From assembly GCA_022826945.1 (NCBI GenBank), contig JAJDTY010000073.1, positions 372,001 through 436,000 on the forward strand: a DNA stretch of 64,000 bases, read 5' to 3'. The first letter of the stretch is position 1; each line of letters begins with the position of its first letter. Source of the stretch: Candidatus Binatia bacterium. GTDB taxonomy: Bacteria > Desulfobacterota > Binatia > Bin18. This document shows positions 6,024 through 60,804 of the stretch, in pieces. A program made the translations under genes and the position numbers. The notes beneath the pieces were generated by a model that saw only the letters and a program-made list of their open reading frames with translations, was not told the DNA's origin and made no database searches.

Positions 6024-6884
6024 TTATCCATTGATATATTTCCCAATAATCGGCTCGAGTTCGTTTTTTACTGTTTCTGGAATCATCGCCCGGTCGGTGA
6101 TGATCGCATCTGCAAGCGCAGTCTCACAGCCGCACACCCGCTCAGGGGACAGCCGCCGGGCGGTGTCCCGTACAATGCGTTGAGCGGTGACAACGTTTTT
6201 GTTCAGAATTGCCAGCACCTCTTCTATCACCACGTCGCCGGCCTCGGTATTCCAGCAGTCGTAATCGGTTGCCATGGCCAAGGTGGCAAAACAGATTTCG
6301 GCTTCACGCGCGAGCTTAGCTTCTTGGAGATTCGTCATCCCAATGATATCAGCACCCCAGCTCCGATACAGCAAAGATTCAGCCCGCGTGGAGAATTGCG
6401 GGCCTTCCATACAGATATACGTTCCCCCGCAATGAACAGCTATGTCCAGACTGTCACTAGCTTCAACCAAAGACTGGGATAAGAGCGGACATACCGGGTC
6501 GGCAAAGGCGACATGGGCGACAATACCCCGGCCAAAGAAGGTACTGATGCGCCCACGGGTCCGGTCGATGAACTGGTCGGGGATGACAATATGGCCGGGC
6601 GCAATTTCCTGCTTCAAACTGCCCACCGCACCCACGGCAACCAAGCGCCGCACGCCAAGCCTTTTCATCCCATAGATATTGGCGCGGAAATTCAGCTCGG
6701 AGGGCAGGATACGGTGGCCACGGCCGTGCCGCGGCAGGAAAACCACGCGGACACCGTCTAATTCGCCAACAAAATAGTCATCCGACGGCAGGCCAAACGG
6801 CGTTTCAACGCTCACCCACTCGCCGTGCTCGATACCGTCCATCTGATATAGACCGCTGCCGCCAATAACACCAAGCGTGATCAT
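6024..6884 (-). CDS. mtnP: S-methyl-5'-thioadenosine phosphorylase
   Basis: At 286 residues this is a full-length member of the PNP/MTAP family 2 trimeric phosphorylases. Diagnostic segments are GVIGGSGLYQMDG, FLPRHGRGHRILPSELNFRANIYGMK, GGTYICMEGPQFSTRAES and MTNLQEAKLAREAEICFATLAMATDYDCW; the last favours methylthioadenosine over inosine or guanosine. The enzyme cleaves methylthioadenosine with phosphate to adenine and methylthioribose-1-phosphate in methionine salvage. It sits between rlmN and the PfkB kinase gene on the same strand with gaps of about 15 bases, so cotranscription is likely. Confidence 0.93.
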   Translation of the reverse strand: MITLGVIGGSGLYQMDGIEHGEWVSVETPFGLPSDDYFVGELDGVRVVFLPRHGRGHRILPSELNFRANIYGMKRLGVRRLVAVGAVGSLKQEIAPGHIVIPDQFIDRTRGRISTFFGRGIVAHVAFADPVCPLLSQSLVEASDSLDIAVHCGGTYICMEGPQFSTRAESLLYRSWGADIIGMTNLQEAKLAREAEICFATLAMATDYDCWNTEAGDVVIEEVLAILNKNVVTAQRIVRDTARRLSPERVCGCETALADAIITDRAMIPETVKNELEPIIGKYING

Positions 6885-7975: not shown

Positions 7976-8392
7976 TTAGGCCAAGTCCAGCCCACTAAAA
8001 AAATAGCCAATCTCCCATTGAGCCGTTTCGGGCGCATCGGAGCCATGTACGGCGTTCTGCTCGATATTCGTGGCAAAATCCTTCCGAATCGTACCCGCAT
8101 CCGCTTCAGCCGGGTTGGTCGCCCCCATAATTTTCCGGTGAGCTTGAATGGCCCCCTCACCCTCAAGCACGGAGACGAGAATCGGACCTGAGGACATAAA
8201 GTCTGTCAGACTCCCAAAAAAGGGGCGTTCTTGATGAACCGCATAAAAGCCTTCGGCTTCGGCTTTGGTCAGGGAGACCATTTTGGTGGCTACGATTTTG
8301 AGTCCGGCTGCTTCAAAGCGGCGGAGAATTTCACCAATGACATTCTTCTTGACTGCGTCAGGCTTCACAATAGAGAGGGTTCGTTCGGTCAT
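7976..8392 (-). CDS. ndk: Nucleoside diphosphate kinase
   Basis: The 138-residue protein is full length. It begins [21 protein letters not shown], contains the phosphate-binding [14 protein letters not shown] region, and has the active-site histidine in NAVHGSDA, the NDK signature. It transfers gamma-phosphate among NTPs and NDPs in the cytoplasm. The gene lies between the TPR gene and rlmN on the minus strand, a common placement of ndk beside rlmN in Proteobacteria. Confidence 0.97.
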
Positions 8393-56692: not shown

Positions 56693-57528
56693 GGGTCCGG
56701 AATCATAACCAATAGAGGACGATGGCAGCGAGGGTGACCGTGGCCAAGTAGTTCTGCGCGAGTTTATCGTAGCGGGTGGCGAGGCGGCGCCAGTCCTTGA
56801 GGCGGCAGAAGGTGCGTTCAATACCATTGCGCTCCCGGTAGGCGACCGGGTCGAAGGGATGTTTGCGTTTGCGCGTCGGGTTGTTGGGGATGACCGGCTG
56901 ACAGCCCCGGCGCCACAGTAAGGCACGCAACGCATCACTGTCAGAGGCCGTATCGACCAGACAACGCTTCGGGGTCATATCAGCCACCAAGTCGGCGCCG
57001 ACCGGGGCGTCCCCGCGATGGCCTGGGCGGACGAGCAGCCGCCGCGGCCGGCCGTATTCATCGACGGCGGCATGGATTTTCGTCGTGCGGCCCCCCCGCG
57101 ACCGGCCAATCGCCTGCTGGTCCGCCCCCCTTTTCCCCCCGCCGCTGACCGATGCGCCTTGACGGGCGTCGCATCCAACATCAGCACCACGGGCGGCCCG
57201 CCGCGGCCACCTCCGTGAAGACCCGCTCCCAGATGCCTTTGCGCGCCCAGCGCACGAACCGATTGTACAACGTCTTGTAGGGCCCATAGCCGGGCGGTGC
57301 ATCGCGCCACCGACAGCCACTCTGTCACACGCGGATGATCCCGGAAATGACCCGCCGGTCGTCCACTCGCGGGACCCCCCGCACCTTGGTCGGCAACAGC
57401 GGCTGGAGCCGCGCGCATTGCTCCTCAGATAACCAAAACGGATTGCTCATCGCCTCTGCCCTCCAAAGTGAAGGGAGAACGAATCACAGCCCGCTTGCAA
57501 GGAAAATCCCCGTTATGAGTCCTGATCC
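56693..57528 (-). mobile_element. IS5-family insertion sequence (IS427-like), 836 bp, decayed
   Basis: Imperfect terminal inverted repeats of 17 bases are visible: GGGTCCGGAATCATAAC at 56693-56709 and GTTATGAGTCCTGATCC at 57512-57528 (14 of 17 pair). TA lies immediately outside each end, as expected for the TA target duplication of the IS427 group. The element contains one transposase gene broken by several lesions. The right-hand TA is also the left edge of the MITE-like element at 57529. Confidence 0.8.
56703..57450 (-). pseudogene. IS5-family transposase, inactivated
   Basis: The ATG at 57450 gives MSNPFWLSEEQCARLQPLLP, a classical IS5-family start. An in-frame TGA interrupts codon 42 where relatives have leucine (..IIRV-stop-QSGCRWRDAP). 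After VFTEVAAAG the frame changes to read PPVVLMLDATPVKAHRSAAG (first DDE aspartate), and then changes again at a GGGGGGAAAAGGGGGG run to SRGGRTTKIHAAVDEYGRPR... and ..RIERTFCRLKDWRRLATRYD-like NGIERTFCRLKDWRRLATRYD (glutamate region). The last change may be the programmed frameshift of the IS427 group; the nonsense codon and first shift are damage. The track shows parts as 56703-57320 and 56975-57418. Confidence 0.8.
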
Positions 57529-58782: not shown

Positions 58783-58790
58783 TGTATGTA
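58783..58790. repeat. Left copy of 8-bp direct repeat TGTATGTA
   Basis: The same 8 bases recur at 60203-60210. The two copies lie exactly outside the inverted ends of the 58791-60202 element, as a target-site duplication would. Confidence 0.65.
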
Positions 58791-58793
58791 GGT

Positions 58794-58826
58794 ACTGTCC
58801 TAAGTAGGCAGTTGACTGCCTAAGTG
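58794..58826 (-). repeat. Left iterated end: two copies of the ACTTAGGCAGT-type motif
   Basis: Reading the minus strand, CACTTAGGCAGT (58826-58815) and ACTTAGGACAGT (58805-58794) are 20 bases apart at their TTAG cores. The spacer contains the perfect palindrome GGCAGT-TG-ACTGCC. The orientation is opposite to the right-end array. Confidence 0.65.
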
Positions 58827-58845
58827 AGGCAGTGTGTAGGAATAA

Positions 58846-59436
58846 TCAGTTTTCAACATCCTTTATCCAGCCTTTCTCTTTGAGATATGCCGCCTCCATT
58901 ATAGCAGGCATCTGCTCTTCTATTATAATGCGTTCCACCTCATGATCATCTTTTGGGTTCAGGCTATTAACCCACTCCTCAATTTCGTTCAACTTTGTCT
59001 CGTAGTCTTGTTGATTCTTTTCGTGCATTCGGCTTTGATCATCAAGTATTTCCAATTGTCTTGCAAAACAGCTATCCTCGTCATGGCATACATCCTCCCC
59101 ATTCTGTTTTCGGAAATTAATAGTGTGAACTTTCACTTGAAGCTCACGAAGTGAGTCTATACCAACATATCGCATGATGTATTCTAACAGTGCTTTATCG
59201 GATTTCTCGTAAATCTCTCGCACTTGACGCCCTAACACGATCCTCCAGAGTTCCCTATTGATGAGCTTCTTAATTTGTTCCTCGCTCCCCTCGATTGCTC
59301 TAAGCTTCTTGAGTTCTTCAACAACCTCCCTCCCGCTTTGTTCCTTGCTTTCCTCAACTGGCTCATCCTCTGTCCACCCAGGGACACTAATGAGTAATGC
59401 CACGACCAGACCTGCCGCGATCCAGAGAGCAGGCAT
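58846..59436 (-). CDS. Secreted coiled-coil orphan protein
   Basis: The 196-residue precursor has a signal peptide (LWIAAGLVVALLISVPGWTE) and a mature part that is charged and largely helical (EELKKLRAIEGSEEQIKKLINRE, ILDDQSRMHEKNQQDYETKLNEIEEW) with two cysteines (DVCHDEDSCF) that could form a disulfide. I recognise no family. Codons are richer in A and T than in neighbouring genes, suggesting transfer. It begins on the minus strand and stops 20 bases inside the left end of the candidate transposon. The 287 bases upstream of it (59437-59723) hold no gene I can support. Confidence 0.7.
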   Translation of the reverse strand: MPALWIAAGLVVALLISVPGWTEDEPVEESKEQSGREVVEELKKLRAIEGSEEQIKKLINRELWRIVLGRQVREIYEKSDKALLEYIMRYVGIDSLRELQVKVHTINFRKQNGEDVCHDEDSCFARQLEILDDQSRMHEKNQQDYETKLNEIEEWVNSLNPKDDHEVERIIIEEQMPAIMEAAYLKEKGWIKDVEN

Positions 59437-59723
59437 ACGTCACCTCTCTTTCCGTGTGTTGCAGGATCAAACAAGCAGAAAGGGGTCGGAAGCGACAGGT
59501 GCGAGAGGCGAGGGGGCAGCCGCTGCCCGGCTGATCCAGGTTGCTGAGCCGTGTCTTCATCGCGCAAATGTACTGCGAGGTCTTGCCTATTCGAGTGTAC
59601 GGGCCATGACTCCCAAACAACTAGACTCTGTTGTATTCGGCGAGTGACCTGACATGCGGATCACTTGCACGATGAAGACGGACCTAGAATAGAGAAGAAG
59701 CAACTGAGGCGTCAAGCGTAGCT

Positions 59724-59963
59724 TCAGGCTGCCTTGTTACTTTTCGCAGGGCGGAGCGACCCCTGTTTATCGATATGCTCCAGCAGCTTCATGAGCGTAG
59801 CTCGCGTATTCTCCTCAAGATCGTCCTTATTGTTAGACACATGGATATGAATACCATATGCTTCCCAGGCATGGTCTTCCGTATAGACGAAGCACACCTC
59901 AACCGACCCTTGCTTACCGCTAATTGGACAAAAACTCTCTTGCTGTGTTGGAGGATTACTCAT
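59724..59963 (-). CDS. Small orphan protein, divergent partner
   Basis: The 79-residue product (MSNPPTQQESFCPISGKQGSVEVCFVYTE...) has no signal peptide or recognisable domain; it contains two cysteines and ends with a basic tail. Its ribosome-binding site GAGG lies inside the coding sequence of the divergent gene at 59962, six bases before the ATG. The two start codons overlap in one CATG. Its strong site and compact placement suggest it is real. Confidence 0.6.
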   Translation of the reverse strand: MSNPPTQQESFCPISGKQGSVEVCFVYTEDHAWEAYGIHIHVSNNKDDLEENTRATLMKLLEHIDKQGSLRPAKSNKAA

Positions 59964-60153
59964 GCCTTACCTCATTTCTCAGGACTCACAGAATGAAACC
60001 TGGACCTGGAAGTTAGTGGTTGATGGTACTCATGAAATTGCTAGGGCCTCATCCCCATTCCCAACTGAAGAAGCTTGTCGTGAAGGCATTGAACAGGTCA
60101 GGCGCGAGACAAGAACGGCGCTAGTGCAATATGAGGGAGAGACACCCACTTAG
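59962..60153 (+). CDS. Small DUF1508/YegP-like protein
   Basis: The 63-residue product MPYLISQDSQNETWTWKLVV... has the pattern of one YegP/DUF1508 repeat (W-x-W-x-L, an alanine/serine turn, EEACREGIEQVR). GGAGG lies seven bases before the ATG, inside the divergent gene. Its stop codon TAG falls inside the first right-end repeat of the candidate transposon (60148-60158). YegP-type proteins have no established function. The domain call is from pattern only. Confidence 0.6.
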   Translation: MPYLISQDSQNETWTWKLVVDGTHEIARASSPFPTEEACREGIEQVRRETRTALVQYEGETPT

Positions 60154-60202
60154 GCAGTTGTCTCGTGACTTAGGCAGTGGAGCACTCACTTAGGCAAGTA
60201 CT
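60148..60202 (+). repeat. Right iterated end: three motif copies at exact 20-bp spacing
   Basis: ACTTAGGCAGT at 60148 and 60168 and ACTTAGGCAAG at 60188 are spaced by exactly 20 bases, about two helical turns, placing the sites on one face of the DNA. The array ends at AAGTACT, directly beside the right TGTATGTA copy. Confidence 0.7.
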
Positions 60203-60210
60203 TGTATGTA
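60203..60210. repeat. Right copy of 8-bp direct repeat TGTATGTA
   Basis: It is identical to 58783-58790 and lies directly outside the right inverted end of the candidate transposon. Confidence 0.65.
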
Positions 60211-60211
60211 T

Positions 60212-60654
60212 GGTAGTGTCTCACTTTGAAAATTGCCGATCCATCAACACGCGCCAGTCCTCCGTCCTCCCTTGTCATCGTTGTCAGACTGCCCGGGGTT
60301 CCGACTCCTGCACTCGCTTCCTCGGGCCGCGAGGCCTCCGCTCCCCGGCGCGATCCTGGCTCGCGCGGTCCAGGAACTCTCTTGACACGATTGCCAGTCC
60401 GGCTGTCTCCCCCAAAAATGTGCCCGGTCCCATACCCGAGGCTCGGCATACCCCTGGGCCTCCGCTCCTGGGCTCATCCCCCGGGCCGTATCTGGCCGCC
60501 CCCGCCTCGGGGCCGGGCGCTCCCACTTCTGTCTTCACTCCCGGCATGGTCACTCAAGGCTGGGGCGCAACGCAATTCTCATAGAAGGCGTTCGGCTGTG
60601 AGGGGCTGGTGTGACAAACACACAGAAGGAAGAAATGTAAAGGGAGACACTACC
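60212..60654. mobile_element. 443-bp element remnant bounded by GGTAGTGTCTC inverted repeats
   Basis: GGTAGTGTCTCACTTT (60212-60227) and AAAGGGAGACACTACC (60639-60654) are inverted repeats with one mismatch in 16. A third, solitary copy of the end is at 32131-32149. The interior is GC-rich and carries overlapping open frames on both strands without recognisable domains, so I call no gene in it. It begins one base after the right TGTATGTA. No direct repeat flanks it. The remaining bases to 60804 show no gene either. The IS family cannot be assigned. Confidence 0.5.
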
Positions 60655-60804
60655 GTGTGCGTTATCTGCATCTGCCGCTCTGCAAGGCTTGGCCAGAGCA
60701 TTTTCAGGTTATCGACCGACTGTCTCAGGCGAGGTCTGGTCGAAGGCAGAGAACAGCGCTAGTATTGGCTCATATTCACTGAGACGTTCGCAAACCGGCC
60801 CACT

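Follow-up and report, generated by a model that had tools for sequence, protein, structure and literature searches.

Architecture of the locus

Within the 64-kb window, by which we mean the whole stretch of DNA that was analysed, a 1,412-bp transposon without a transposase of its own occupies positions 58791–60202 (Table 1). Its inverted ends read GGTACTGTCCTAAGT (58791–58805) and AGTACTTGCCTAAGT (the reverse complement of 60188–60202), and the inverted copies share the consensus (G/A)GTACT..CCTAAGT. Further copies of the inner motif ACTGCCTAAGT follow in exact 20-bp steps, one on the left (58815) and two on the right (60148–60158 and 60168–60178). The motif positions confirm two phased motifs at the left end and three at the right in opposite orientations, as given in the preliminary description, which had also reported an 8-bp target duplication at both edges, present here as TGTATGTA, and an interior of lower GC content that encodes no transposase (approximately 42–54% GC compared to approximately 54–64% in the surroundings, with no transposase among the genes). 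The left inner motif is contained in a near-perfect palindrome, ACTGCCTAAGTGAGGCAGT, that was absent from that description. Every one of the three exact matches to TGCCTAAGTGNG in the window lies at the ends of this unit, which was also the sole match in a whole-window scan for a perfect 8-bp duplication combined with 14-bp inverted ends. The left end recurs between different flanks in genomes G397 (position 7986 of locus L069) and G398 (position 8060 of locus L070).

Table 1. Features of the 1,412-bp unit and of the adjacent 443-bp element (window coordinates)
Feature	Position	Strand	Remarks
8-bp target duplication TGTATGTA, left copy	58783..58790	.	Read directly and found by window scan
Left end, GGTACTGTCCTAAGT followed by ACTGCCTAAGTGAGGCAGT	58791..58833	+	Two motifs phased at 20 bp; the inner motif is palindromic
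Cargo gene A, 196 aa	58846..59436	-	Hydrophobic leader at the N-terminus and charged C-terminus; family search gave nothing above the cut-off
Leader region upstream of gene A	59463..59680	-	Also present in other mobile elements or next to them
Cargo gene B, 79 aa	59724..59963	-	No family
Cargo gene C, 63 aa	59962..60153	+	DUF1508 domain (PF07411, 23.9 bits, cut-off 22)
Right end	60148..60202	-	Three motifs phased at 20 bp (60148, 60168 and 60188), in the orientation opposite to that of the left end
8-bp target duplication TGTATGTA, right copy	60203..60210	.	Read directly
Second element, 443 bp, ends GGTAGTGTCTCACTTT / GGTAGTGTCTCCCTTT	60212..60654	.	No transposase; degenerate 8-bp duplication GTATGTAT / GTGTGCGT

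All three cargo genes had at first been taken for orphans, which holds for the 196-aa and 79-aa products and not for the 63-aa product, because the latter has a DUF1508 domain. The 196-aa protein had no match among phage proteins, plasmid sequences gave no DNA match to the element, and an Rfam search of the element including the leader region returned nothing credible.

Uninterrupted sites and a neighbouring element

The genus sample consisted of seven genomes, namely that of the window (G000, contig C17) and six further ones. Uninterrupted sites, for which the preliminary description had proposed to search related genomes, occur in G396, G397, and G398, where the flanks are continuous and both the 1,412-bp unit and the 443-bp element are missing, while G399 carries a short unrelated insert at the same site. 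The left flank in G398 extends up to 58788 and the right flank picks up at 60655, so the missing segment is larger than the element first reported. Directly to the right of the 1,412-bp unit lies the overlooked 443-bp element, which has ends of the type GGTAGTGTCTC and belongs to the GGTAGTGTCTCA family. The uninterrupted site of G398 reads GAAT-GTATGCGT-TATC with a single GTATGCGT, from which the octamer before the 443-bp element differs by two changes and the one after it by one. Most likely, the 443-bp element inserted first and duplicated GTATGCGT, and the 1,412-bp unit would have arrived later, in TGTATGTA beside its left edge.

The family of the 443-bp element is related to the phased-end family described below and is more numerous: ends of the form GGTAGTGT(A/C)TCA.TTTGAA number 34 in the window's own genome versus three for the reversed pattern. 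Such ends flank 70-bp and approximately 300-bp miniature inverted-repeat elements (MITEs) as well as a 1,173-bp unit, each with 8-bp duplications, and intermediates such as GGTAGTGTCCTAATTTGA (L161) bridge both end types. The 1,173-bp unit (430–1602 of L071; G398:C8:104429–105601) has a perfect 8-bp duplication, GAATAGAT, and ends GGTAGTGTA; it had been considered as an insertion sequence (IS) and was rejected because its sole content is an alpha/beta-hydrolase-like (epoxide-hydrolase-like) gene.

A genus-wide family of units without transposase

Further copies, which the preliminary description had suggested searching for, occur throughout the genus and are flanked by 8-bp duplications of their own. 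The family with ends GGT(A/G)CTG.CCTAA(G/T)T comprises MITEs of 70, 81, and 101 bp and cargo units of 317, 683, 836, and 1,412 bp. Members with their own 8-bp duplications include five, two, and four MITEs of the respective sizes, one 317-bp unit, one 683-bp unit (7/8 matching), and the 1,412-bp unit itself; the 836-bp spacing is that of two phased ends in G398 (L070), between which lies a gene for a 188-aa protein. A 1,614-bp element with the related ends GGTACTGGCTG likewise has a matching 8-bp duplication. This unit (11–1624 of L154, G400), in which the duplication is perfect, carries an ankyrin-repeat gene and has a palindromic GGTACTGTCCTAATTAGGACAGTACC nested inside.

In 15 of 40 distinct ends of this type, collected in the genus and in relatives of it, a second motif stands exactly at +20. 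Shuffled sequences gave 0.096 such ends on average and never more than 2, and the phasing is therefore not due to chance. That the region is ancestral, with repeats that arose by chance rather than through insertion, can be regarded as refuted, as the site is uninterrupted in three relatives, many copies exist with independent flanks and duplications, and the phasing lies far above that in shuffles. Neither of the two outcomes that would have spoken against the preliminary description, a lack of further copies and an ancestral region without an empty site, was obtained.

The double-motif pattern is present in every one of the seven genus genomes if the motif may contain either G or T, and its strict form in five of them. 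Outside the genus it was found in none of the 111 genomes scanned, of which 9 belong to sister genera and 102 to other families within the class, and reversed patterns used as controls also gave zero. A phylum-wide scan outside the genus yielded only scattered matches with two mismatches. Exact scans of sequence collections for the CCTAATT double motif retrieved only G397 itself and one match in the Bacillota without a GGTACTG end, and there were none in the viral contigs scanned. G397 corresponds to the record Desulfurellaceae bacterium bin18 (MPMI01000030.1); this lineage is probably a symbiont of sponges to which more recent taxonomies give a different position.

IS1-type transposases beside related ends

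The preliminary description had also called for an autonomous relative. Loci encoding PF03400 (IS1) transposases lie beside such ends; a complete element that combines phased ends on both sides with an intact transposase was not found in the seven genus genomes. The 2,652-bp element L072 (G396:C28:8241–10892) has identical, single-site GGTAGTGCGTCAATTTGAAA ends with a 6/8 duplication; besides passengers it encodes a PF03400 transposase, which is spread over two overlapping frames. A search with this transposase retrieved relatives in three genera of the family. For instance, the 3,468-bp element L296 (G406:C719:55–3522) from a sister genus encodes an intact 292-aa PF03400 transposase between phased ends with a 20–22-bp step, a diverged motif, and a 7/8 duplication; the number of right ends like this one expected by chance is approximately 0.002. 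In L298 (G397:C69), a left end of the window type, GGTACTGGCCTAGGTGGGCAGTTGACTGG, lies approximately 750 bp from a truncated related transposase, which alone, at 19.1 bits, falls short of the Pfam cut-off of 24.1, and the locus runs off the contig. L303 (G397:C61) combines a phased GGTGCTG end with a transposase fragment. The assembly to which the window belongs is 90% complete, and no IS1-type transposase was detected in it. An end in this genome that seemed to abut the tail of a transposase gene (G000:C17:133106) was rejected, as there was no match to a transposase.

In the transposase tree, L295, L072, and L297, which have single-site ends, stand apart from L298, L303, L296, and L300, of which the first three have phased ends and the last has no end that could be seen. 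The sample behind this split by end type is small and the clade supports are modest (81/85 and 90/92). Since the tree divides by end type, a link between the enzyme and the arrangement of its sites is directly testable.

The preliminary description had found no family that it could name, a statement that can be narrowed in view of the ends, the duplication size, and the transposases that adjoin such ends, all of which fit the IS1 family. A published relative of ISAba3 in the IS1 family ends in GGTGGTGTTTCAAAAAG (GGTGGTGTTTCAAAAAGTATGCTG) and makes 8-bp duplications (PMC6382973). The 1,412-bp unit shares with this family (e.g., the ISAba3-related GGTGGTGTTTCA ends) the terminal GGT(A/G)(G/C)TG and the 8-bp duplication, which is of constant size throughout the phased-end family and lies within the 8–9 bp typical of IS1, and the DDE transposase with a PF03400 domain is here encoded beside related ends. 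The unit differs in that it lacks a transposase, carries cargo, and has two to three motifs per end at 20-bp steps. Moreover, the related transposases have diverged, with a best score of 74 bits (L296) against the NCBI IS1 transposase equivalog cut-off of 100 bits, and so represent a divergent IS1-like group rather than canonical IS1.

Mobilisation by a transposase from a family not seen so far, with ends that resemble those of IS1-like elements, would account for the lack of a complete autonomous phased-end element in the genus and of an IS1-type gene in the window's assembly; it is very unlikely given four loci with IS1-type transposases of one clade, three of which have iterated ends. The arrayed, phased sites at both ends of the unit recall Tn7-like, Mu-like, and Tn552-like systems, in which each end likewise has several phased putative transposase sites. 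Tn7 and Mu generally make 5-bp duplications and have TG termini and arrayed sites. In contrast, the duplications of the present family are 8 bp, its ends begin with GGT, no TnsB or MuA gene was seen, and the transposases found beside such ends are of the IS1 type, by which a system of this kind is largely excluded.

Resident IS1595 transposons and the shared leader region

The main rival to an IS1-like enzyme is the resident IS1595 family (PF12762), which is present in all seven genus genomes (in six above the cut-off), makes perfect 8-bp duplications, and frequently carries passenger genes, and which has GG termini and the leader region in common with the 1,412-bp unit. We consider mobilisation of the unit by these transposases unlikely and set them aside as the enzyme source because their ends are different: the resident PF12762 elements end in GGGAATTAYATAC, those with definable ends are mostly of the GGGAATTA(C/T)ATAC type without GGTACTG and without the phased motif, and the GGTACTG ends in the vicinity of IS1595 genes, two in number, have the look of remnants or of separate insertions. 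The mixed ends GGTGCTGTCCTAATTAGAGCAATAATATGCTTGACTA of L202 and L203, part of which resembles an IS1595 end, speak for the rival. Both are 1.63-kb units (2257–3890 of L202 and 2235–3869 of L203) with approximately 40-bp ends that are IS1-like outside and IS1595-like inside. These 1,634-bp units were rejected as autonomous candidates; they carry a DUF433/PIN toxin-antitoxin-like pair and no transposase, and no duplication was seen. A 2,829-bp element in the window's own genome (6027–8855 of L096, G000:C21) has GGGACTTATAT ends, the duplication ATAATTTT, and a GGTACTG end approximately 53 bp inside its right edge; no PF12762 gene was found in it, and it is apparently an IS1595-type cargo unit.

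The leader region upstream of gene A is 85% identical to sequences in L071 and L072, where it corresponds to a 115-bp stretch upstream of the L072 passenger, and 77–85% identical to sequences inside the IS1595 transposons L073 and L074. It precedes a passenger gene at 6104–6218 of L072, 4381–4577 of L071, 5552–5647 of L073, and 5222–5282 of L074. This recurrence in or beside both IS1-like and IS1595 elements suggests a shared expression module. The product of gene A also bears a weak likeness to the C-terminus of the L072 passenger (24% over 114 aa, E = 0.002 in a single comparison).

Proposed mobilisation and relation to mobile insertion cassettes

The 1,412-bp unit is probably a non-autonomous cargo transposon that is moved through its phased ends by an IS1-family transposase encoded elsewhere. 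This is the best reading of the evidence and sustains the earlier proposal of a cargo-carrying element moved in trans, a movement that we infer. The transposase would bind the phased ACTGCCTAAGT sites at both ends and cut at the terminal GGTAC, and the staggered cuts at insertion would give rise to the 8-bp duplication. The three small genes occupy the unit in place of the transposase. Any benefit of the cargo would be similarly putative.

Mobile insertion cassettes (MICs, as they are named in ISsaga/ISfinder) are defined by IS ends around passenger genes, lack a transposase, and are activated by a cognate transposase (PMC3129680). The 1,412-bp unit has inverted ends and a duplication of fixed length, passengers without a transposase, and both uninterrupted sites and independent family copies. 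The most fitting description is therefore a mobile insertion cassette that belongs to a divergent IS1-like group and whose phased ends are unusual. It resembles MIC231 of Bacillus cereus in having IS ends around passengers. However, MIC231 uses the ends of IS231 (IS4 family), whereas those of the unit are IS1-like and phased and its family ranges in size from MITEs of 70 bp up to cargo units of 1.4 kb. Such cassettes have seldom been documented, and here one genus harbours a whole population, from 70-bp MITEs to 1.4-kb gene carriers, that shares ends and duplication length. With the phased sites, ends that hold several sites each, an arrangement known elsewhere from Tn7 and Mu, are now found beside IS1-type transposases.

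We tentatively propose, as a reading that stands close to an even chance without reaching it, an undescribed IS1-like group whose transposase would recognise arrays of palindromic sites at a 20-bp step, with ends built like those of Tn7 and Mu, and whose gene-carrying passengers, spread throughout the genus, may exchange both their cargo and their leaders with IS1595 transposons. Units of this kind would be invisible to automatic annotation because they have no transposase. Elsewhere in the window, an IS5-family (IS5_3 type) transposase is encoded at 56703–57418, apparently split across two frames.
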